A DNA stretch of 64,000 nt from Clostridiales bacterium. GTDB lineage: Bacteria; Bacillota; Clostridia; Christensenellales; Aristaeellaceae. The notes under the pieces are model-generated. The model searched no databases and was not told where the DNA came from. It saw only the letters and a list, made by a program, of their open reading frames with translations. Position numbers and translations under genes: made by a program. The DNA lies in assembly GCA_015056055.1 (NCBI GenBank), contig SVHC01000012.1, positions 1 through 64,000 on the forward strand, read 5' to 3'. Positions 13,019 through 59,797 of this stretch are shown here, piece after piece. How positions within the stretch are numbered: the stretch's first letter is position 1; every line of letters starts with the position of its first letter.

Positions 13019-13939
13019 ATGATTCGCGTATTTGTGGATGGCGGAGCGGGAACAACGGGTCTTCGTATCGGTGAACGCCTCGCTGCAAGAGATGATATTG
13101 AGCGTATTGTTTTGAAGGAAGAATTCCGCAAGGATGCAGCTGCCAGAAAAGATGCGCTGAATTCCTGTGATGCGGCATTTTTGTGTCTGCCGGATGCAGC
13201 TGCAAAGGAAGCTGCTGCAATGGTGGAAAATCCCAATGTTGTAGTTCTGGATGCATCTACTGCGCACAGAACGAATCCTGACTGGGCGTACGGCTTTGCC
13301 GAGCTTTCTGCAGCGCATAGGAATGCAATCGCAACCGGAAAGCGCATTGCAGTGCCCGGTTGCCATGCCAGCGGATTTATCGCTCTGGTATATCCGATGG
13401 TGGCAAGCGGTATTCTGCCCAAGGATGCGCTGCTTTCCTGCCATTCCATGACGGGATACAGCGGCGGCGGAAAAACCATGATTGCAGATTACGAGGCGGA
13501 TGAGCGCGATGTGCAGCTTGGCAGCCCGAGGCAGTACGCTCTGGGACAGACGCACAAGCACCTGCCCGAAATGGCAAAAGTATGCGGACTTACGCATGCA
13601 CCGATTTTCTCCCCGGTCGTATCGGATTATTATGCGGGCATGGCCGTTACAGTGGGTCTGTTCCGCGATCAGATCAATGGAAGCAAGGCTGACGTTGAAG
13701 AAGTGATGCGCTCGCATTACGCATCTTCCCGCCTTGTGAAATATGCAGACGCACCGGATTTCTTCGCTGCCAACACCCTTGCAGGGCGCGACAGCATGGA
13801 AGTATCCGTTGCCGGAAACGATGACCGCATCCTGCTGCTTGCCAGATTCGATAACCTCGGCAAGGGTGCATCCGGTGCGGCGGTACAGTGTATGAATATA
13901 GCTTTCGGTCTGGATGAAGCAACCGGACTGAATCCGTAG
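13019..13939 (+). CDS. argC: N-acetyl-gamma-glutamyl-phosphate reductase, short type 2
   Basis: It catalyses NADPH-dependent reduction of N-acetylglutamyl phosphate, the third arginine-pathway step. The 306-residue length and opening MIRVFVDGGAGTTGLRIGERL fit the type 2 ArgC subfamily rather than the 345-residue type 1. The catalytic Cys lies in AVPGCHASGF, and the GYSGGGKTMI and HKHLPEM segments are conserved. It is the first gene of the arg operon, about 35 nt after a promoter with ARG-like boxes. The ribosome site is weak (ACGGTGG), so the start at 13019 rests mainly on the conserved N-terminus. Confidence 0.95.
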   Translation: MIRVFVDGGAGTTGLRIGERLAARDDIERIVLKEEFRKDAAARKDALNSCDAAFLCLPDAAAKEAAAMVENPNVVVLDASTAHRTNPDWAYGFAELSAAHRNAIATGKRIAVPGCHASGFIALVYPMVASGILPKDALLSCHSMTGYSGGGKTMIADYEADERDVQLGSPRQYALGQTHKHLPEMAKVCGLTHAPIFSPVVSDYYAGMAVTVGLFRDQINGSKADVEEVMRSHYASSRLVKYADAPDFFAANTLAGRDSMEVSVAGNDDRILLLARFDNLGKGASGAAVQCMNIAFGLDEATGLNP

Positions 13940-13951
13940 GAGGATACAGAT

Positions 13952-15166
13952 ATGCAGTATATTGCAGGCGGCGTATGTGCGCCGAAGGGATTTAAGGCAG
14001 CTGGCGTTCATTGCGGCATCCGCAAGAACCGTACCAAGTATGATCTGGCGCTGATCGTATCGGATGAAATGGCGGCAGCGGCAGCGGTATATACGCAGAA
14101 CCTTGTAAAAGGTGCTCCGATTCTGGTAACGAAAGAACATCTGGCGGACGGTTATGCCCGTGCTGTTATCGTAAACAGCGGCAATGCAAACACCTGCAAC
14201 GCCAACGGCATCGAGATCGCAAAGGGCATGTGCGCTCTGGTGCGCGAGCATACCGGTATTGACGAGAAGGATGTTGCTGTAGCCTCCACCGGCGTTATCG
14301 GTCAGCCGCTTTCTCTGCAGCCCATCGCAGACGGCATGGAAAAGCTGGTAAATGCGCTTTCCTACGACGGAAGCGTTGATGCAGCCAATGCCATTATGAC
14401 TACGGACACGCTGCTCAAGCAGTTTGCGGTAGAATTCATGATGGATGGCGTTGTATGCACCATCGGCGGCATCGCCAAGGGAAGCGGTATGATTCATCCC
14501 AACATGGCAACCATGCTTTCCTTCATCACTACCGACTGCGCTATTTCTCCGGAAATGCTGCAGGAGGCTCTGAAGGAAGACATCGTGGAAAGCTTCAATA
14601 TGGTATCTGTTGACGGCGATACCTCCACCAACGATATGGTTATGATCATGGCAAACGGTCTTGCGGGCAATTCTCCCATCACCAAGAAGAATGCGGATTA
14701 TGCCACGTTCCGTTCTGCACTGCGCATGATCACGCAGATGCTTTCCCGCGCAATCGCAAAGGACGGCGAAGGCGCTACCAAGCTGATCGTGTCCAAAACC
14801 GTTGGTGCGAAGAACGTCGAAACCGCCCGCACGGTTGCAAAGGCCGTTATCTGCTCGAACCTGTTCAAGGCAGCAATGTTCGGCGCGGATGCAAACTGGG
14901 GCCGCGTACTGTGCGCCATCGGTTATTCGGGCGCAGATGTGGATGTAAATAAGATTGACGTTACCTTCTCTTCTGAGATGGGCAAGCTGCCGGTTTGCAT
15001 GAACGGCGCAGGCGTTCCCTTCGACGAGGACGAGGCAAAGAAAGTTCTTTCTGCAAATGAAGTAAACGTACTCGTCGACCTGTGCGATGGCGAATGTGAA
15101 GCAACTGCATGGGGCTGCGATCTGACGTACGACTATGTAAAGATCAACGGCGATTATCGCACCTAA
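13952..15166 (+). CDS. argJ: Bifunctional glutamate N-acetyltransferase / ornithine acetyltransferase
   Basis: ArgJ moves the acetyl group from N-acetylornithine to glutamate, recycling it, and may also use acetyl-CoA. The 404-residue precursor carries the autocleavage motif KGSGMIHPNMATML with the nucleophile Thr187 at the alpha/beta junction. Its presence explains why no argA or argE is needed here. AGGAGGATACAGAT precedes the ATG. It lies 12 nt after argC and 15 nt before argB. Confidence 0.97.
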   Translation: MQYIAGGVCAPKGFKAAGVHCGIRKNRTKYDLALIVSDEMAAAAAVYTQNLVKGAPILVTKEHLADGYARAVIVNSGNANTCNANGIEIAKGMCALVREHTGIDEKDVAVASTGVIGQPLSLQPIADGMEKLVNALSYDGSVDAANAIMTTDTLLKQFAVEFMMDGVVCTIGGIAKGSGMIHPNMATMLSFITTDCAISPEMLQEALKEDIVESFNMVSVDGDTSTNDMVMIMANGLAGNSPITKKNADYATFRSALRMITQMLSRAIAKDGEGATKLIVSKTVGAKNVETARTVAKAVICSNLFKAAMFGADANWGRVLCAIGYSGADVDVNKIDVTFSSEMGKLPVCMNGAGVPFDEDEAKKVLSANEVNVLVDLCDGECEATAWGCDLTYDYVKINGDYRT

Positions 15167-15181
15167 TGGGAGGGAACACGC

Positions 15182-16045
15182 ATGGAAATTTCGAATGCAC
15201 AGCGCGCTGCCGTTCTGGTTGAAGCGCTCCCTTATATTCAGCGGTACGCCGGAAAAACTGTTGTTGTCAAATACGGCGGACATGCCATGCTTGATAACGA
15301 GCTGAAGCGTGCAGTTATGCGCGATATCGCGCTTCTCAACCAGGTCGGCGTAAAGGTCGTTCTGGTGCACGGCGGCGGTCCGGAAATTTCTGAAATGCTC
15401 AAGCGCGTCGGCAAGCAGAGCGAGTTTGTTCGCGGTCTGCGCGTAACCGATGCCGAAACGGCTGAAATCGTGCAGATGGTATTGGCCGGAAAAATCAATA
15501 AGGGTCTTGTCGCGCATCTGGGTGCAATCGGCGGCCGTGCAATCGGTCTTTGCGGTATGGACGGCAATATGATCGAGGCCGAAACGATGGATCCCGAACT
15601 GGGCTTCGTCGGCAAAATTACAAAAATCAATCCCAAGCCGATCGTGGATATGCTTGATATGGGATATATCCCGGTTATCTCCACCGTCGGCTGCGACAGC
15701 GACGGCGGCGTATACAATATCAATGCCGATACGGCAGCTGCACGCATTGCAAGCGCACTCGGCGCGGAAAGTCTGCTCAATATGACGGATATCGTGGGTC
15801 TCCTCCGCGATAAGGATGATCCGGAAAGCCTGATTCCTGTGGTTAAGGTTTCCGAGGCTCCGGCACTGATCGAGGACGGCACCATTTCCGGCGGTATGAT
15901 TCCCAAAATTGAGTGCTGCATCGAAGCGATGAAGAACGGCGTAACCCGCGTATTTATCATTGATGGCCGTATTCCGCATTCCATCCTGATCGAACTTCTG
16001 ACGGATGAAGGTATCGGCACCATGTTTGTGAACGGAGACGAATAA
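15182..16045 (+). CDS. argB: Acetylglutamate kinase
   Basis: ArgB phosphorylates N-acetylglutamate, the usual feedback-controlled step. The 287-residue protein shows the amino-acid kinase landmarks VKYGGHAM, LVHGGGPEIS, the NAG-binding NINADTAAARIA and GGMIPKI. An N-terminal helix (EISNAQRAAVLVEALPYI) precedes the core and is characteristic of hexameric, arginine-inhibited NAG kinases, so feedback inhibition by arginine is likely. GGGAGGGAACACGC precedes the start. argD follows after 3 nt. Confidence 0.97.
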   Translation: MEISNAQRAAVLVEALPYIQRYAGKTVVVKYGGHAMLDNELKRAVMRDIALLNQVGVKVVLVHGGGPEISEMLKRVGKQSEFVRGLRVTDAETAEIVQMVLAGKINKGLVAHLGAIGGRAIGLCGMDGNMIEAETMDPELGFVGKITKINPKPIVDMLDMGYIPVISTVGCDSDGGVYNINADTAAARIASALGAESLLNMTDIVGLLRDKDDPESLIPVVKVSEAPALIEDGTISGGMIPKIECCIEAMKNGVTRVFIIDGRIPHSILIELLTDEGIGTMFVNGDE

Positions 16046-16048
16046 ACA

Positions 16049-17188
16049 ATGGATATCAAGGCAGTTGATAAGGAGTATATTGCGAATACCTACGCGCGAT
16101 TTGATCTTACGATCACGGGTGGTCGCGGCTCCATCGTATATGACGATCAGGGTAAGGAGTATATCGATCTGGGCAGCGGAATCGCCGCAAATTCCGTCGG
16201 TATCTGCGACCCGGTATGGCAGCAGGCCGTAATCGAGCAGCTGATGCAGGTACAGCACACTTCGAATCTGTACTATACCGCTCCGCAGGCCAAGCTTGCC
16301 AAGCTCCTGTGCGAAAAAACCGGCATGAAGAAGGTTTTCTTCTCCAACTCCGGTGCGGAATCCAATGAGTGCGCCATCAAAGCTGCACGCAAATATGCAT
16401 CCGATAAAAACAGCGGACGCGATACGATCATTACTCTCTGGCAGAGCTTCCACGGACGCACGATTTCAACGCTGTCTGCCACCGGTCAGGAACATTTCCA
16501 TCAGCATTTTGGACCGTTTACGCCCGGATTTGTGCACGTAAAGGCTAATGATATCGAAGACCTGCGCGCAGCGGTTGCGAACAATAAGGTTTGCGGTATC
16601 ATGATGGAAATGGTGCAGGGCGAAGGCGGCGTAAATTGCCTGGACAAGGAATTTGTAGACGAGTGTGCAAAGATCTGCGCCGAGAATGATATTCTTCTTA
16701 TGGTGGACGAAGTGCAGACCGGTAACGGTCGCACGGGCAAGCTCTATGCATACGAGCATTACGGAATCAAGCCCGACATCGTATCCACTGCCAAGGGTCT
16801 GGGTGGCGGTCTGCCCATCGGTGCGACGCTGCTTGGCGAAAAGGTGGAGAATACGCTTTCCGCAGGAACGCATGGCTCTACCTTCGGCGGCAACCCCATC
16901 TGCGCAGCGGGTGCTTACAGCATTATTTCCCGTCTGGATGATGAATTCCTCGCAGAAGTTACCGCAAAGAGCGAATATATTTTCTCGCAGTTCCCGAATG
17001 CAACCGGCATGGGACTTATGATCGGCATTGCCACCGAAAAGCCTGCGGGTGAAGTTGTCCGCGCGGCGATGGAAAAGGGTGTTCTGTGCCTGACTGCGAA
17101 AACCAAGGTACGACTGCTTCCGGCTCTTACGATTCCGTGGGATCAGCTGAAGAAGGCAGTGGCGATTTTGAAGGAGGTAATGGAATGA
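16049..17188 (+). CDS. argD: Acetylornithine aminotransferase
   Basis: This class III PLP aminotransferase makes N-acetylornithine from the semialdehyde and glutamate. At 379 residues it has SNSGAESNECAIKAARKY, the PLP-Asp region LLMVDEVQTGNGRTG and the Schiff-base Lys in VSTAKGLGGGLPIGA. Its 3' end overlaps argF by 4 nt (ATGA). Some family members also act on succinyl-diaminopimelate, which is worth noting because a DapF domain is encoded downstream. The arg context makes the acetylornithine role primary. Confidence 0.96.
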   Translation: MDIKAVDKEYIANTYARFDLTITGGRGSIVYDDQGKEYIDLGSGIAANSVGICDPVWQQAVIEQLMQVQHTSNLYYTAPQAKLAKLLCEKTGMKKVFFSNSGAESNECAIKAARKYASDKNSGRDTIITLWQSFHGRTISTLSATGQEHFHQHFGPFTPGFVHVKANDIEDLRAAVANNKVCGIMMEMVQGEGGVNCLDKEFVDECAKICAENDILLMVDEVQTGNGRTGKLYAYEHYGIKPDIVSTAKGLGGGLPIGATLLGEKVENTLSAGTHGSTFGGNPICAAGAYSIISRLDDEFLAEVTAKSEYIFSQFPNATGMGLMIGIATEKPAGEVVRAAMEKGVLCLTAKTKVRLLPALTIPWDQLKKAVAILKEVME

Positions 17189-18081
17189 AGCACTTACTGA
17201 AAATGAGCGATCTGAGCGTTCAGGATATTCAGGAAATTTTGGATCTGGCAGATAAGCTGAAGTACGAAAAGAAGCACAACATTCCGCATCCGATTCTTGC
17301 CGGAAAGACTCTGGGCATGATTTTCCAGAAGTCCTCCACGCGTACCCGCGTTTCTTTTGAAACCGGTATGTATCAGCTGGGCGGCAGCGCACTGTTCCTT
17401 TCCTCCCGCGATCTGCAGATTGGCCGCGGTGAGCCTGTTGAGGATACTGCACGCGTGCTTTCCCGCTATCTGGACGGTATCATGATCCGTACCTTCGCGC
17501 AGAAGGAAGTTGAGGATCTGGCAGAGTACGGCTCCATCCCGATTATCAACGGTCTGACCGACTATGCGCATCCCTGCCAGGCACTGGCCGATTTCATGAC
17601 CATGCGCGAATACAAGGGCGATCTGAAGGGTCTGAAGTTTGCTTTCGTAGGCGACGGCAACAACATGGCAAACTCCCTGATCGTTGGCGCTATCAAGCTG
17701 GGTATGAAGGCTGTTATCGCTTGCCCCGAGGGATACGAACCCGAAGTTGCCGAATGGGCAAAGGCCAACGGTGATTTCAGCATCGTGCGCAAGGTTTCCG
17801 AGGCAACCGAAGGCGCAGACGCCGTATATACCGATGTTTGGGCTTCCATGGGTCAGGAAGGCGAGGCTCAGGAGCGCATGAAGGTATTCAAGGATTATCA
17901 GGTCAACGAAGAAAATATGAGCGTCGCCAATAAGGACGCAATGGTCATGCACTGCCTGCCCGCACACCGTGGCGAGGAAATTACGGCAGAAACCTTCGAA
18001 AAGCATGCAAATGAGATCTTTGACGAGGCAGAAAACCGTCTGCATGTTCAGAAGGCAATCATGGTCAAGCTGATGGCTTAA
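17185..18081 (+). CDS. argF: Ornithine carbamoyltransferase
   Basis: ArgF joins carbamoyl phosphate to ornithine to give citrulline. The 298-residue protein has the carbamoyl-phosphate motif SSTRTRVSFE, the HPCQALAD loop and the ornithine loop HCLPAHRGEE. The ATG at 17185 uses AAGGAGG eight nt upstream and overlaps the argD stop; an open frame starting earlier is inside argD. carA follows after 13 nt, so the enzyme and its substrate supply are encoded together. Confidence 0.97.
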   Translation: MKHLLKMSDLSVQDIQEILDLADKLKYEKKHNIPHPILAGKTLGMIFQKSSTRTRVSFETGMYQLGGSALFLSSRDLQIGRGEPVEDTARVLSRYLDGIMIRTFAQKEVEDLAEYGSIPIINGLTDYAHPCQALADFMTMREYKGDLKGLKFAFVGDGNNMANSLIVGAIKLGMKAVIACPEGYEPEVAEWAKANGDFSIVRKVSEATEGADAVYTDVWASMGQEGEAQERMKVFKDYQVNEENMSVANKDAMVMHCLPAHRGEEITAETFEKHANEIFDEAENRLHVQKAIMVKLMA

Positions 18082-18094
18082 CGGAGGTACGCGC

Positions 18095-19159
18095 ATGAAA
18101 AAGGCGTACATCGTTATGGAAAATGGCCGCGTGTTCGAAGGATGGCGCGCAGGCGCCGAAGGGAATACCATGGGTGAAATGGTGTTCTCCACGGGCATGG
18201 GCGGCTACATAGAAACGCTCACCGATCCGGCCTGCTTTGGTCAGATCGTTGTGGGCACTTTCCCGATGATGGGAAATTACGGAATGATTCGCGCCGACTG
18301 GGAAAGCAGCGGCGCTTTCCTGCGTGGATTTGTGGTGCGTGAAATTTGCGAAAATCCTTCAAATTTCCGCTGCGAAGGCACGCTGGACGATCAGCTGAAG
18401 GCATGGGGAATTCCCTGTGTCTGCGGCGTGGATACCCGGGAAATCACGCGTATTCTGCGCGAGGCCGGTTCCATGAAGGCGGCGATCACCGATGATCCTG
18501 CAAATGTGGATATGGATGCATTGCGCGCTTACCATGCAGATGATGCGGTAAAGAGCGTTTCTCGAAACGATATCGGCCATTTTAAGGGCGAAAAATCGCG
18601 ATATACGGTTGCGGTATATGACTTTGGCGTGCGCGCCTCTGTGATTCGCGCGCTGACCGATCGCGGCTGCGCGGTTACCGTGTACCCGGCCGAAACGCTT
18701 GCCGAAGAGGTTCTTGCCGGCAAACTGGACGGCATTGTTCTTGCAGGCGGCCCCGGAAATCCGGCGGAAAATGCCCAGATCATTGAAAACGTGAAGGCTG
18801 TTCTCGGACGTGTTCCGGTTATGGCTATTGGTCTGGGAAACCAGATTCTGGCGCTGGCTGCAGGTGCAAAGACCGAAAAGATGAAGTTCGGTCACAGGGG
18901 TGCGAACCAGCCTGTGAAGCGTTTGTCCGATGGGCGCACATTCATCACTGCGCAGAACCGCGGCTATGCCATTGTGAAGGACAGCCTGCCCGAGGGCGCT
19001 GTACTGAGCATGGAAAACGCAAACGATCATGCCTGTGAAGGTGTGGAATATCCGGCTCTGCGTGCATTCGGCGTGGATTTCTATCCGGCAACGGGCAGCA
19101 GCGCCAACAGCACTGCTTACCTGTACAACAACTTTATAAACGCGATGGGGGGAATTTAG
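18095..19159 (+). CDS. carA: Carbamoyl-phosphate synthase small subunit with glutaminase triad lost
   Basis: The N-terminal CarA domain is intact (VFSTGMGGYIETLTDP, FPMMGNYG, GVDTREITR). The C-terminal class I amidotransferase fold is recognisable (GGPGNPAENA, GHRGANQPVK), but every catalytic residue differs. The usual ICLGHQ is AIGLGNQ (Cys to Gly246, His to Asn249), and the usual QFHPE is DFYPA (His to Tyr330, Glu to Ala332). The conserved QNHG is QNRG. The reading frame is uninterrupted and sits within a tight operon, so it is unlikely to be decayed. By the family mechanism it cannot hydrolyse glutamine. It may support an ammonia-dependent synthase, as in animal CPS I, whose Cys is also replaced. 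At 354 aa it is slightly short. Confidence 0.93.
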   Translation: MKKAYIVMENGRVFEGWRAGAEGNTMGEMVFSTGMGGYIETLTDPACFGQIVVGTFPMMGNYGMIRADWESSGAFLRGFVVREICENPSNFRCEGTLDDQLKAWGIPCVCGVDTREITRILREAGSMKAAITDDPANVDMDALRAYHADDAVKSVSRNDIGHFKGEKSRYTVAVYDFGVRASVIRALTDRGCAVTVYPAETLAEEVLAGKLDGIVLAGGPGNPAENAQIIENVKAVLGRVPVMAIGLGNQILALAAGAKTEKMKFGHRGANQPVKRLSDGRTFITAQNRGYAIVKDSLPEGAVLSMENANDHACEGVEYPALRAFGVDFYPATGSSANSTAYLYNNFINAMGGI

Positions 19160-22100
19160 ATGCCGCGCAACAAAAGCATAAACAAGGTGCTCGTCATCGG
19201 TTCCGGCCCGATTGTTATCGGTCAGGCGGCGGAGTTTGACTATGCGGGAACGCAGGCATGCCGTGTTCTGAAGGACATGGGTGTGAATGTTGTGCTCGTA
19301 AACTCCAACCCGGCAACCATCATGACCGACGCAGCCCTTGCAGATGAAATTTATCTTGAACCGTTGAATGCGGAAACCGTCCGCCGCATCATCGAAAAAG
19401 AGCGCCCGGACGGAATGCTCGCTACCCTTGGCGGACAGACGGGTCTTACCATTGCTTCCGAGCTGGAAAAGGAAGGCTTCCTCGAAAAGAGCGGCGTGCG
19501 ACTGCTTGGCACCAATGCGCAGGCGATTGACCGCGCAGAAGACAGAAAGCTTTTTGCCGAAACGATGAAATCCATCGGCCAGCCCATTATTCCGTCCGGA
19601 ATTGCTGTTACGGTGGAAGAGGCTGTGGAAGTGGCCAATCAAATCGGTTATCCTGTTATCGTGCGTCCGGCATTTACTCTGGGCGGCACGGGCGGCGGCG
19701 TTGCCGAGGACGAGGCTTCCCTGCGCGAAATCGCAGATGCCGGACTTATGCTGTCGCCGATTCATCAGGCGCTGATTGAAAAATACATTTACGGCTGGAA
19801 AGAAATCGAATTTGAAGCACTGCGCGATTCGGCGGGCAATGCCATCGCCGTGTGCTCCATGGAAAATGTCGATCCTGTCGGTGTGCATACCGGCGACTCT
19901 GTTGTTGTTGCCCCTGCGCTTACGCTGGCGGCTCCTGAGCTTTCCATGCTGCGTCAGGCTTCTCTCGACATTGTTGAGGCGCTCGGCATTGAGGGCGGCT
20001 GCAACTGCCAGTTTGCTCTTGACCCGGTCAGCTTCCAGTATGCCGTTATCGAGGTAAATCCGCGTCTTTCCCGTTCTTCCGCACTGGCAAGTAAGGCGAC
20101 GGGCTATCCCATTGCCAAGGTTGCGGCAAAAATCGCTATGGGTCTTACGCTGGATGAAATCGTAAATGATGTTACCGGCGAAACCTATGCATGCGTTGAG
20201 CCGACCATCGACTATGTGGTTGTAAAGCTGCCCAGATTCCCGTTTGACAAGTTTGTGGGCGCAAGCCACGCACTTGGCACGCAGATGAAGGCGACCGGTG
20301 AGGTTATGTCTATCGGTCCTACCTTCGAAGCAGCGCTGATGAAGGCCATTCGCGGCGCAGAGATCAAGATGGATACCCTTAATTATGCGGGCGAACTGGA
20401 TTATCATAAGATGGACGATCAGCGTCTGTTTGCGGTATTCCAGGCGTTGAAAAAGGGTGTTTCCATCGATGAAATCTATGCAGCTACGCGCATTGATCGC
20501 TTCTTCCTGAATAAGCTCAACAACCTTGCAAAGGCTGAAAATGCCATTGCAGGCCGTGCTGTTACGGAAGAGGAATATATCGGCATGAAGCGCCTTGGCT
20601 ATACCGACAAGGCAATTGCGCGCATCAGCGGCAATCCTCTGCCTGCACACCGCTGTGCCGTTTACAAGATGGTTGACACCTGCGCAGCGGAATTCCGTGC
20701 GCTGACTCCGTATTTCTATTCTACATACGACGACGTTTGCGAGTCCCGCGAACGCAAGCAGGATAAGCCCTGCGTGGTCGTTCTGGGCTCGGGTCCCATC
20801 CGCATCGGTCAGGGTATCGAATTTGACTATTCTTCGGTACACTGCGTATGGACGCTGAAGAAGCTGGGCTATGACGTTGTTATCATCAATAACAACCCCG
20901 AAACCGTATCCACCGACTTTGATACGGCAGACCGCCTGTATTTTGAGCCGCTCACCGAAGAGGACGTTCTGAACGTCATCGAGGTTGAAAAGCCCGTGGG
21001 CGTTGTTGTTGCTTTCGGCGGTCAGACTGCTATCAAGCTCACCAAATGCCTGGATGAGCGCGGCATTCAGATTCTGGGCACCTCTGCCGAGGGAATCGAT
21101 ATGGCGGAAGACCGTGAACGCTTCGATGCGCTTCTGCAGCAGCTGGATATCCGTCGTCCGGAGAGCGACACTGCCATGGATATTGAAGGCGCGCTGCGTG
21201 CGGCAAACCGACTGGGTTATCCCGTACTTCTGCGCCCGAGCTACGTAATCGGCGGTCAGAATATGACCATCGCGCAGACGGATGACGATGTAAAAACCTA
21301 TATGCGTCTGATTCTGGCGCAGGGCATCGAAAATCCCGTTCTGGTTGACAAGTACATGCGCGGCACGGAGCTGGAAGTAGACGCTATTTCCGACGGTACG
21401 GATGTACTGATTCCCGGCGTTATGGAGCATATTGAGCGCGCAGGCGTTCACAGCGGCGATTCCATTGCCGTATATCCGCCTTACAATCTTACGGATAAGC
21501 AGGCGCAGGCGATTGTGGACTGCTCCACCAAGCTGGCTCTTGCACTGGGTACGCGCGGTCTGGTAAATATCCAGTATCTGATTCACGGCGGCGAATTGTA
21601 CGTCATCGAGGTCAATCCCCGCGCATCCCGTACCATTCCGTACATCAGCAAAGTATCCGGCGTACCGATGGTCGACATTGCTACCCGAGTAATGATGGGC
21701 GAGAGCCTCGCATCCCTGGGATATGCATCCGGCATTCATAAGACGCCTCCGTACTATGCCGTAAAGGTTCCGGTATTCTCCTTCCAGAAGCTGCCTGACG
21801 CAAACAGCGCTCTTGGCCCGGAAATGAAATCCACGGGTGAAGTTCTGGGCGTTGGCAAGACGCTGCGCGAGGCTCTGTTCAAGGGCTTTGCAGCTGCCGG
21901 ATTCAACATCGGCGGTAAAGCTGCCGAGAAGAAGGGCGTGCTCATCAGCATCGGCATTGCAGATGACGTGGAAACCATGCGTCTTGCAAAGAAGTTCTAC
22001 GATATGGGTCATGCTATTTACGCCACGAAGGATACCGCAAAGGTCATTCGTTCCTTGGGTATCCCCGCGGAAGAGGTTGGTCTGCCTGGGCAGGATGACG

Positions 22101-23170
22101 GCATCACCGCACTGATTACTGAGGGCATGATTGATTATGTCGTATTCGAAGGCATTTCCACGCCCGAGGATGTGCGCGACTATATCCAGCTGCACCGCGT
22201 TGCCATGATGAACGGCGTAGTATGCCTGACTTCCACCGATACGGCAAATGCACTTGCGGATATTCTGCAGAGCCGCTTCAACCTGCGCAATACGGAGCTT
22301 GTGGACATTGCTCACATGCGTACCGAGCGCCAGAAGCTTTCGTTCCTGAAAATGCAGGGCACGGGCGATGACTACATTTTCCTTGAGAATTTCGGAGGAA
22401 GGATTTCCTGCCCCGAATCTCTTGCCATTGATTTCACGGACCGCAGCTGCGGCATCGGCGGCGACGGACTTGCATTGATCGAATCCTCGTCCGTTGCGGA
22501 TGCGAAGATGCGCGTATTCAATCAGGATGGCTCCGAGGCCAGCATGGCGGGTAATGCCGTGCGCTGCGTGGCGAAGTATCTCTACGACCGCGGTCTTGTG
22601 AATACCGATACTGCAACCGTGGAAACGCTCAGCGGCGTGAAGAAGATCAATCTTTATACCGTTGCGGGCCGTGTGCATTCTGCTGAGGTTGATATGGGCA
22701 AGGCGGAGTTTGAACCGGCGAAAATCCCTGTCAAGCTTCCGGGCGAAAAAATCGTAAACCGCCCTGTGATGATTGACGGAATCCGCTTTAATATCACCTG
22801 CGTGAATGTGGGTACGCCGCACTGCGTAACCTTCTGCCGCACGCTGGAGGATATCGATGTGGAGCGCATCGGCCGTGCATTCGAGCATGCCGAGATTTTC
22901 CCCGAGCGCATCAATACGAACTTTGTCCGCGTAGCGGACAGGCGTACCCTGCGTATGCGCGTTTGGGAACGCGGCAACGGCGAAACCCGTTCCTGCGGTA
23001 CCGGCGCCTGCGCGGCGGTTGTGGCTGCGGCGGAGAATGATCTTGTCGATAAGAACGCCGACATCACCGTAAAGCTCGCCGGCGGCGACCTCATCGTAAA
23101 TTACGATGGCGAAACCGTGCGTCTCACCGGTAACGCAAACCTGATTTACGAAGGTACCATCGAGTATTAA
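19160..23170 (+). CDS. carB: Carbamoyl-phosphate synthase large subunit fused to a DapF-like domain
   Basis: One uninterrupted 1336-residue frame begins directly after the carA stop. Residues 1-400 are the carboxyphosphate ATP-grasp half, about 400-545 the oligomerisation region, about 550-930 the carbamoyl-phosphate half (RPSYVIGGQNM, VIEVNPRASRT), and about 930-1063 a divergent MGS-like regulatory domain. From Met1065 to the end is a full-length diaminopimelate epimerase fold: KMQGTGDDYIF, CGIGGDGLALI, ERGNGETRSCGTGACA. One catalytic Cys is present (Cys1279), but the other is Ala1130 (SMAGNAVRC instead of MCGNxxRC). The substrate Asn sites are Asp1070 and Thr1219. CarB activity is well supported; epimerase activity is doubtful. 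The fusion is unknown to me. Confidence 0.93.
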   Translation: MPRNKSINKVLVIGSGPIVIGQAAEFDYAGTQACRVLKDMGVNVVLVNSNPATIMTDAALADEIYLEPLNAETVRRIIEKERPDGMLATLGGQTGLTIASELEKEGFLEKSGVRLLGTNAQAIDRAEDRKLFAETMKSIGQPIIPSGIAVTVEEAVEVANQIGYPVIVRPAFTLGGTGGGVAEDEASLREIADAGLMLSPIHQALIEKYIYGWKEIEFEALRDSAGNAIAVCSMENVDPVGVHTGDSVVVAPALTLAAPELSMLRQASLDIVEALGIEGGCNCQFALDPVSFQYAVIEVNPRLSRSSALASKATGYPIAKVAAKIAMGLTLDEIVNDVTGETYACVEPTIDYVVVKLPRFPFDKFVGASHALGTQMKATGEVMSIGPTFEAALMKAIRGAEIKMDTLNYAGELDYHKMDDQRLFAVFQALKKGVSIDEIYAATRIDRFFLNKLNNLAKAENAIAGRAVTEEEYIGMKRLGYTDKAIARISGNPLPAHRCAVYKMVDTCAAEFRALTPYFYSTYDDVCESRERKQDKPCVVVLGSGPIRIGQGIEFDYSSVHCVWTLKKLGYDVVIINNNPETVSTDFDTADRLYFEPLTEEDVLNVIEVEKPVGVVVAFGGQTAIKLTKCLDERGIQILGTSAEGIDMAEDRERFDALLQQLDIRRPESDTAMDIEGALRAANRLGYPVLLRPSYVIGGQNMTIAQTDDDVKTYMRLILAQGIENPVLVDKYMRGTELEVDAISDGTDVLIPGVMEHIERAGVHSGDSIAVYPPYNLTDKQAQAIVDCSTKLALALGTRGLVNIQYLIHGGELYVIEVNPRASRTIPYISKVSGVPMVDIATRVMMGESLASLGYASGIHKTPPYYAVKVPVFSFQKLPDANSALGPEMKSTGEVLGVGKTLREALFKGFAAAGFNIGGKAAEKKGVLISIGIADDVETMRLAKKFYDMGHAIYATKDTAKVIRSLGIPAEEVGLPGQDDGITALITEGMIDYVVFEGISTPEDVRDYIQLHRVAMMNGVVCLTSTDTANALADILQSRFNLRNTELVDIAHMRTERQKLSFLKMQGTGDDYIFLENFGGRISCPESLAIDFTDRSCGIGGDGLALIESSSVADAKMRVFNQDGSEASMAGNAVRCVAKYLYDRGLVNTDTATVETLSGVKKINLYTVAGRVHSAEVDMGKAEFEPAKIPVKLPGEKIVNRPVMIDGIRFNITCVNVGTPHCVTFCRTLEDIDVERIGRAFEHAEIFPERINTNFVRVADRRTLRMRVWERGNGETRSCGTGACAAVVAAAENDLVDKNADITVKLAGGDLIVNYDGETVRLTGNANLIYEGTIEY

Positions 23171-59152: not shown

Positions 59153-59797
59153 ATGATTGCGATCATTGATTACGGCGTGGGCAATCTTTTCAGTTTGTCT
59201 TCGTCGCTGAAATATCTGGGCATGGACGCGTGCGTTACCGGCAATGCGGAGGACCTTCGCCGTGCGGACAGAATTATTCTGCCCGGCGTGGGAGCGTTCG
59301 GCGATGCGGCAGAACAGCTGCGCGCAACCGGACTTGTTCCCGTGATTCGCGAAGAAGCGGCAAAGGGCAAACCGTTTCTGGGCATCTGCCTGGGTATGCA
59401 GCTTCTGTTTGAAGAAAGCTTTGAGTACGGAAGGCATGAAGGACTCGGCCTGATTCCCGGCGGCATCTATCCCATGGAGGAAGATCTGAAGGCAATGGGA
59501 ATTTCCCTCAAGGTCCCGCAAATCGGCTGGAATGCGCTGGACATTTGTAAGGCAGATCATCCCCTGATGAAGTACTGCAAAAACGGCGACTTCGTTTACT
59601 ATGTGCATTCCTACTATGCCAAAACGGCGGAAGAAAACCTTGTGGCAACGTCGGATTACGGCGTGCGCGTACCGGGCGCGGTGGCGCGTAAAAATGTATT
59701 CGGCTGTCAGTTCCATCCGGAAAAGAGCGGCCGCGTAGGACTTTCCATCCTGAAAGCATTCTGTGAGGTGCCTTATGAAAATCTTTCCGGCAATTGA
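59153..59797 (+). CDS. hisH: Imidazole glycerol phosphate synthase glutaminase subunit
   Basis: The 214-residue class I amidotransferase feeds ammonia to HisF. The full catalytic triad is present: Cys in LGICLGMQLLFE, and His and Glu in CQFHPEKSG. This is a useful internal contrast with CarA in the same window, where the equivalent residues are lost. AAGGAGAAATCT precedes the ATG. The 3' end overlaps hisA by 23 nt. Confidence 0.97.
   Translation: MIAIIDYGVGNLFSLSSSLKYLGMDACVTGNAEDLRRADRIILPGVGAFGDAAEQLRATGLVPVIREEAAKGKPFLGICLGMQLLFEESFEYGRHEGLGLIPGGIYPMEEDLKAMGISLKVPQIGWNALDICKADHPLMKYCKNGDFVYYVHSYYAKTAEENLVATSDYGVRVPGAVARKNVFGCQFHPEKSGRVGLSILKAFCEVPYENLSGN

Follow-up and report, generated by a model that had tools for sequence, protein, structure and literature searches.

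The carA and carB genes of the window, meaning the whole stretch of 64,000 nucleotides analysed here (contig SVHC01000012.1 of assembly GCA_015056055.1, a Clostridiales bacterium of the family Aristaeellaceae), probably encode an ammonia-fed carbamoyl-phosphate synthase (CPS) in which CarA has been kept as a structural subunit, as part of an erosion that affects several glutamine amidotransferases; the nitrogen donor in vivo is, we infer, ammonia. Catalytic residues have been lost from CarA frames that remain intact, the loss has originated repeatedly, close pairs of such genes show low dN/dS, and an intact GMP synthetase (GuaA) is lost along with them; the CarA fold is predicted to be kept. 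The features of the locus are the following.

13019..17188, + strand: argC-argJ-argB-argD, upstream arginine biosynthesis genes (open reading frames; names presumed from resemblance of the translations)
17185..18081, + strand: argF, ornithine carbamoyltransferase (open reading frame list; start inferred, name presumed from resemblance)
18095..19159, + strand: carA, CPS small subunit with a dead glutaminase site (open reading frame, profiles, alignment, codons and model)
18830..18832, + strand: codon 246, GGT (Gly), for the nucleophile Cys, E. coli C269 (alignment, codon read)
18839..18841, + strand: codon 249, AAC (Asn), for the His of GHQ, E. coli H272 (alignment, codon read)
18959..18961, + strand: codon 289, CGC (Arg), for the His of QNHG, E. 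coli H312 (alignment, codon read)
19082..19084, + strand: codon 330, TAT (Tyr), for the catalytic His, E. coli H353 (alignment, codon read)
19088..19090, + strand: codon 332, GCA (Ala), for the catalytic Glu, E. coli E355 (alignment, codon read)
19160..23170, + strand: carB, fused in frame to dapF (open reading frames, profiles)
about 59162..59758, + strand: hisH, in-genome control with intact Cys/His/Glu (GICLGMQ and FHPE kept)

The start of argF was placed at the Met of MKHLL, within an open reading frame listed from 17086. The end of argF is followed by carA after 13 nt and carB begins right after the carA stop, in agreement with the tight spacing given in a preliminary description of this DNA. 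By the open reading frame list, and with the arg names taken from resemblance, argC-J-B-D-F, carA and carB form a single tight run, and carA looks to sit within a complete arg operon. The carB-dapF frame (1336 aa) comprises CarB at about 1-1040 and DapF at 1061-1334; CarB can be aligned over residues 1-972 with positions 1-990 of the E. coli protein and two CarB models were passed, and from its sequence the synthetase looks complete. A CarB-DapF (diaminopimelate epimerase) fusion is also present in G006, a genome of the same genus, and in G046 (L373, L374).

The window carA is an intact, stop-free frame of 354 aa whose product carries both CarA domains in one chain (PF00988, 147 bits; PF00117, 121 bits), with carB adjacent. 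The Cys-His-Glu glutaminase triad of the CPS II small subunit is absent from it, the positions being occupied by Gly246, Tyr330 and Ala332, and both the codons and the alignment to E. coli CarA agree with the preliminary description of an intact gene bearing these replacements together with Asn249 and Arg289 (QNRG). The same alignment reveals three changes beyond those described earlier, S47 being Ala46, K202 being Arg180 and G359 being Ser336. We take Ser47, Lys202 and G359 to have glutamine-site or tunnel roles in CarA, G359 presumably lining the ammonia tunnel of the E. coli protein, for which the PDB has a G359F mutant (1m6v). The dead window CarA passes the 'glutamine-hydrolyzing' model TIGR01368 (NCBIfam, 351 bits), so that routine annotation hides the loss and metabolic models would show glutamine consumption where there is probably none. 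Sequencing error was rejected as a source of the substitution, because the second CarA and the GuaA of the same genome have lost the same residue, as have about ten lineages of the family.

Four residues that we presume to contact glutamine (Leu247, Gln250, Asn288 and Gly290, window numbering) are retained in the window CarA by alignment to the E. coli protein. Their retention would suit a Gly form that hydrolyses glutamine weakly by another mechanism, leaving the enzyme a glutamine-dependent CPS, as would three Sporosarcina copies in which His and Glu persist. Such residual hydrolysis is nevertheless extremely unlikely, since the hydrolysis, which proceeds via a thioester, is described as requiring both Cys-269 and His-353 (PMC6245113, in excerpt) and the window CarA is without both Cys and His, and without Ser47 and Lys202 as well.

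The predicted model of the window CarA (pLDDT 95.1; TM 0.94-0.96 to E. coli CarA entries) bears out the earlier statement that the fold is kept, and in a PDB ranking E. coli CarA stands above human CPS1. Gly246 lies in the model between a strand (242-245) and a helix (247-255), where it would form a tight turn suited to Gly, at a position presumably subject to the strain of the nucleophile elbow.

A survey of 201 genomes of the family yielded 140 CarA that were read, from 130 genomes, with 71 genomes having no CarA read; the set was drawn from the matches listed and left out fragments, weak rows and the partial rows G164, G102:C15, G129:C114 and G124. Cys is kept in 119 of the 140 and lost in 21 (19 Gly, one Ser and one Asp), with L330 and L291 counted as Cys-containing, the latter ending before His and Glu. 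L330 (genome G126, in which an intact-scoring GuaA is absent) has kept Cys and lost His, Glu and the His of QNHG, and the order of loss is therefore not always Cys first. If Cys is taken as ancestral, a FastTree tree computed with the active-site columns removed requires at least 10 changes of the Cys state; the 21 Cys-less CarA form 10 pure clades on it, of which nine have Gly and one has Ser/Asp. A single clade sharing all the substitutions, as had been envisaged earlier, is thus replaced by about ten family lineages with varied residues at the His and Glu positions. The window CarA itself is 60% identical to a same-genus CarA in which Cys is kept, and G006 has Cys in both of its CarA. The change from Cys to Gly takes one base (TGY to GGY) and is one of seven single-base amino-acid changes; the excess of Gly despite this points to selection for the fold.

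Eighty-three CarA columns are conserved in at least 95% of the 119 Cys rows, and 61 of these are conserved in at least 80% of the 21 Cys-less rows. The steepest falls are at C246 (0%), S46 (10%), H330 (14%) and E332 (37%), and other columns also relax (L216 24%, I183 29%, N218 33%), suggesting a relaxation that is centred on the glutaminase site, though not confined to catalytic columns. All 100 Cys-less rows, which include other lineages from among the matches listed and differ in kinship between groups, give a similar picture. His is present in 13, Glu in 48 and both in 9 of the 91 Cys-less rows with all triad columns filled, a set that includes named-genome matches listed and in which a few rows with gaps may have their triad letters out of register.

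Close pairs of Cys-less CarA have a median dN/dS of 0.164 over the whole gene and 0.166 over the GATase half (18 pairs, one duplicate genome dropped), the corresponding values for Cys-containing close pairs being 0.227 and 0.213 (274 pairs). From these low values it follows that Cys-less carA is kept for its protein, and the earlier judgement that the gene is maintained rather than decayed thereby holds for this type of gene rather than for the window gene itself. The opposite reading, that carA is decaying because de novo carbamoyl phosphate is unneeded and CarB alone or import suffices, could appeal to the source of the dN/dS values in other Cys-less CarA, the window CarA having no close relative in the set compared, and to the 17 family genomes with Cys-less CarA only, which are often without PyrG (13) and GlmS (11), as a reducing genome might be. 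Decay is very improbable in view of the low dN/dS in close pairs of the same kind, the stop-free frame and predicted fold, the position inside a seemingly complete arg operon, and the recurrence of the state in about ten lineages, of which nine share the Gly.

The window genome (G000) holds two CarA by PF00988 search, and both of its CarB score above the family cut-off. The second CarA adjoins genes read as pyrB and pyrC and reads FGIGLGHQ, KHQSY and QYQPE, with Gly in place of Cys and the His gone. A glutamine-type CPS for pyrimidines was not found in the window genome, since the only other CarA by PF00988 is also Cys-less; the second, canonical carAB that had been sought beside pyr genes turned out to be this copy. 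The preliminary description had proposed an ammonia-using synthase dedicated to citrulline, and of this proposal direct ammonia use survives as the most likely reading, whereas the dedication to citrulline does not: a citrulline-only CPS beside a normal CPS II is rejected by the same search, and among the matches listed the 79 Cys-less carA of named genomes (see below) have pyr neighbours in 30 cases, arg neighbours in 19 and neither within the stretch in 30.

The erosion extends to other enzymes of this genome. GuaA is full length and its synthetase domain passes the cut-off (446 bits against 339), but its N-terminal glutaminase domain, which reads VLALGCPAM and LQFFPE, falls below the curated cut-off (92 bits against 172). 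PyrG (CTP synthase, PF06418) was not found in the window genome, nor was GlmS, which is below its cut-off there; we presume that reverse NagB with ammonia could replace GlmS. The nucleophiles of PurF, PurL and HisH are kept, and the standard triad reported earlier for HisH is confirmed. Some glutamine amidotransferases of the window genome are accordingly disarmed or lost and others retained. An AsnB-like protein (L047, on G000:C13; 586-aa frame) has an N-terminal glutaminase half that matches weakly and is without an evident starting Cys.

A full-frame PF00120 match (glutamine synthetase) on contig C9 (G000:C9:14060-15151), together with the retained nucleophiles of PurF, PurL and HisH, indicates that glutamine is probably still made and used; with that match in place, an absent glutamine synthetase is unsupported as the cause of the losses. 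All 17 family genomes with Cys-less CarA only have some PF00120 match, the best being about 1e-104 to 1e-113 in 8, about 1e-85 in 2 and only about 1e-20 in 6; the 1e-130 class that is common in the family occurs in one (G156). Continued glutamine synthesis would be compatible with a glutaminase acting in trans that replaces the activity of CarA, so that CarB still receives glutamine-derived ammonia, and two-subunit glutaminase/synthetase systems do exist, for example the NAD synthetase of T. thermophilus (PMC3376133, in part). No replacement class I glutaminase subunit was found among the six PF00117 hits of the genome, which are the two dead CarA, the dead GuaA, HisH and two further proteins on other contigs. 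We take the latter two to be PuuD/C26-like from their resemblance. With this outcome of the PF00117 search, and with the residue at E. coli G359 changed too, supply in trans is very improbable.

The proposed direct use of ammonia by the window CPS is accompanied by a wider pattern in the family, whose genomes are divided by CarA into 17 with Cys-less copies only, 110 with Cys-containing copies only, 3 with both and 71 with none read. GuaA was scored as intact when its best match reached E <=1e-150, as it did in 131 genomes. Reading the triad in 46 of them, the 30 that scored best and 16 of those that scored lowest, gave 45 with Cys and one with Gly, the latter in G072, where CarA is unread. 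Intact-scoring GuaA is present in 0/17 Cys-less-only genomes, 87/110 Cys-only genomes, 3/3 with both and 41/71 with none read. The contrast of 0/17 with 87/110 gives P = 1.7e-10 by Fisher's test, which ignores kinship, and an exact P of 1.3e-4 within genera (6 genera); a supported-pair test on the tree (6 pairs; mean 4.9 the same way, 0.2 opposite and 1.0 without difference; median p 0.0625) agrees weakly in direction. Among the Cys-less-only genomes, GuaA was read in G000, G035 and G046, each with Cys replaced by Gly, and probably in a fourth, G237, whose CarA is that of G131; for the rest its state is deduced from the score. An intact-scoring GuaA is also missing from 23 of the 110 genomes with Cys-containing CarA. 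PyrG is present in 4/17 Cys-less-only against 100/110 Cys-only genomes and GlmS in 6/17 against 85/110 (within-genus P of 2e-4 and 0.035, respectively), absences that may reflect assembly gaps; mean completeness is alike in the two groups (88 and 89). Over the whole family, CTP synthase (PF06418) was not found in 60 of 201 genomes (33 among the 105 best-quality ones) and GlmS does not reach its cut-off in 84 of 201.

In the proposed mechanism CarB would make carboxyphosphate, take NH3 from solution at the carboxyphosphate site and proceed to carbamoyl phosphate, while CarA, unable to form the glutamyl thioester, would supply no NH3 and may be kept as a structural, perhaps regulatory, partner that holds CarB in shape. 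Such an enzyme would descend from a conventional CPS II that used glutamine, through replacement of Cys by Gly, usually with loss of His and often of Glu, and the same shift would have occurred many times, in arginine- and pyrimidine-linked copies alike. It would belong to a broader shift in which the GMP synthetase glutaminase was also lost, and often CTP synthase and GlmS, with free ammonia probably fed straight into arginine, pyrimidine and GMP synthesis, as might fit life with plentiful free ammonia. E. coli CPS is said to use ammonia solely at very high concentrations (PMC6245113, in excerpt), and either a CarB adapted to ammonia or a very ammonia-rich habitat is therefore expected; the synthetase part of GMP synthetase accepts external ammonia in vitro (PMC10526850, in part). 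That many bacteria of ammonia-rich habitats have dismantled several glutaminase halves at once, so that free ammonia sustains their nucleotide and arginine synthesis, with the Cys to Gly change of CarA as the genomic mark, has in our estimation an even chance of being right.

The window enzyme shares with E. coli CarA-CarB (CPS II) the two-subunit architecture, the fold, adjacent genes and a CarB alignable over 1-972, and differs in the absence of the catalytic Cys, His and Glu, in the changes at Ser47, Lys202 and G359, and in the fusion of CarB to DapF. Human CPS1 (CPS I, the ammonia type, which is mitochondrial; PMC6022934, in part) has likewise kept a glutaminase-like domain with its nucleophile replaced (TM 0.88-0.91 to the window model); it carries Ser294 for Cys and takes ammonia from outside, perhaps via another tunnel (PMC4655335, in part), and is a single chain that is activated by N-acetylglutamate and serves the urea cycle (PMC4655335; PMC6022934; both in part). 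The window CPS, by contrast, is bacterial, biosynthetic and separately derived, has Gly for Cys, consists of two chains encoded by separate carA and carB frames, and does not have animal CPS I as its closest relative. The parallel to animal CPS I drawn earlier thus applies to how the enzyme appears to work, while by family the window protein remains, on sequence, a CarA/CPS II lacking the glutaminase triad.

Convergent shifts from glutamine to ammonia have also been argued for CPS III of Alcolapia fish, in which, unlike the window CarA, the triad persists and the loss concerns a residue that binds glutamine (PMC7657897, in part). Single-domain NAD synthetase is another amidating synthetase with free ammonia as its in vivo donor; that form has been argued to be ancestral (PMC3376133, in part), whereas ammonia use in the window CPS would be secondary, with the dead glutaminase domain kept. 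A carbamate-kinase-like route in Pyrococcus also provides prokaryotic carbamoyl phosphate without a glutaminase, but through a different fold and enzyme, with no CarA or CarB (PMC6022934; PMC6245113; both in part). Glutamine is named in a review as the physiological source of nitrogen for every bacterial CPS (PMC6245113, in excerpt) and is given as the substrate of all CPS types but CPS1 (PMC4655335, in part), and no report of a natural Cys-less bacterial CarA was found among the matches listed in a search of open-licence literature by title and start of abstract. If the reading proposed here is correct, bacteria have made an ammonia-only CPS many times, in parallel to CPS I, and a single codon predicts an organism's need for free ammonia.

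A pattern scan of named genomes, which is blind to replacements with T-initial codons and gives no frequency, returned at least 80 loci, of which 79 encode a Cys-less CarA. Among the matches listed, the sources cover Clostridia and Bacillaceae and include MAGs from sheep, goat, deer and buffalo gut, Syntrophomonas, Pelotomaculum, Alistipes, Yaniella, Lederbergia, Siminovitchia, Allobacillus and four Sporosarcina; a dapF match (as a match only, not read as a fusion) lies at 11 of the 79 loci. In the named isolate record of Streptococcus agalactiae ATCC 13813 (L056), CarA has Gly at the Cys position and Tyr where the catalytic His would be. Several Sporosarcina and Lederbergia strains are named isolates with the same loss, which makes the reading testable now. 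Three of the four Sporosarcina CarA have lost Cys alone, with His and Glu kept, and the fourth has Tyr for His, as if, judging from the sequences, the loss had just begun. Cys-less CarA in this genus, which has a species reported to need ammonia, would be explained if several amidotransferases are lost together; for S. pasteurii, as distinct from the other named genomes that supplied the CarA read here, several papers call ammonia mandatory for growth, urea being able to replace it, and the species is described as without glutamine synthetase and glutamate synthase activity (PMC7775470, in part).

GuaA was checked in the genomes of 39 of the 79 listed loci, most non-clostridial ones being left out and one of those used, L122, being equal to that of a family genome. 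It is intact in 13, solely dead, shrunken or reduced to the ATPPase in 18 (16 read, 2 by match coordinates), and absent or weakly cross-matched in 8; the coupling of CarA and GuaA is therefore not universal, and 9 of the 13 hold a second GuaA match that is shrunken, dead or glutaminase-less. The GuaA proteins form a series from intact, through full length but dead, to a domain of about 110 residues and finally to its complete removal (310-364 aa), and in all nine full-length dead GuaA that were read, as well as in G072, Cys has been replaced by Gly. GMP synthetases without a glutaminase domain, or with one of about 110 residues (L191-L202, L188-L190, L348-L351), occur in MAGs of several gut and other Clostridia and also in the family genome G026.
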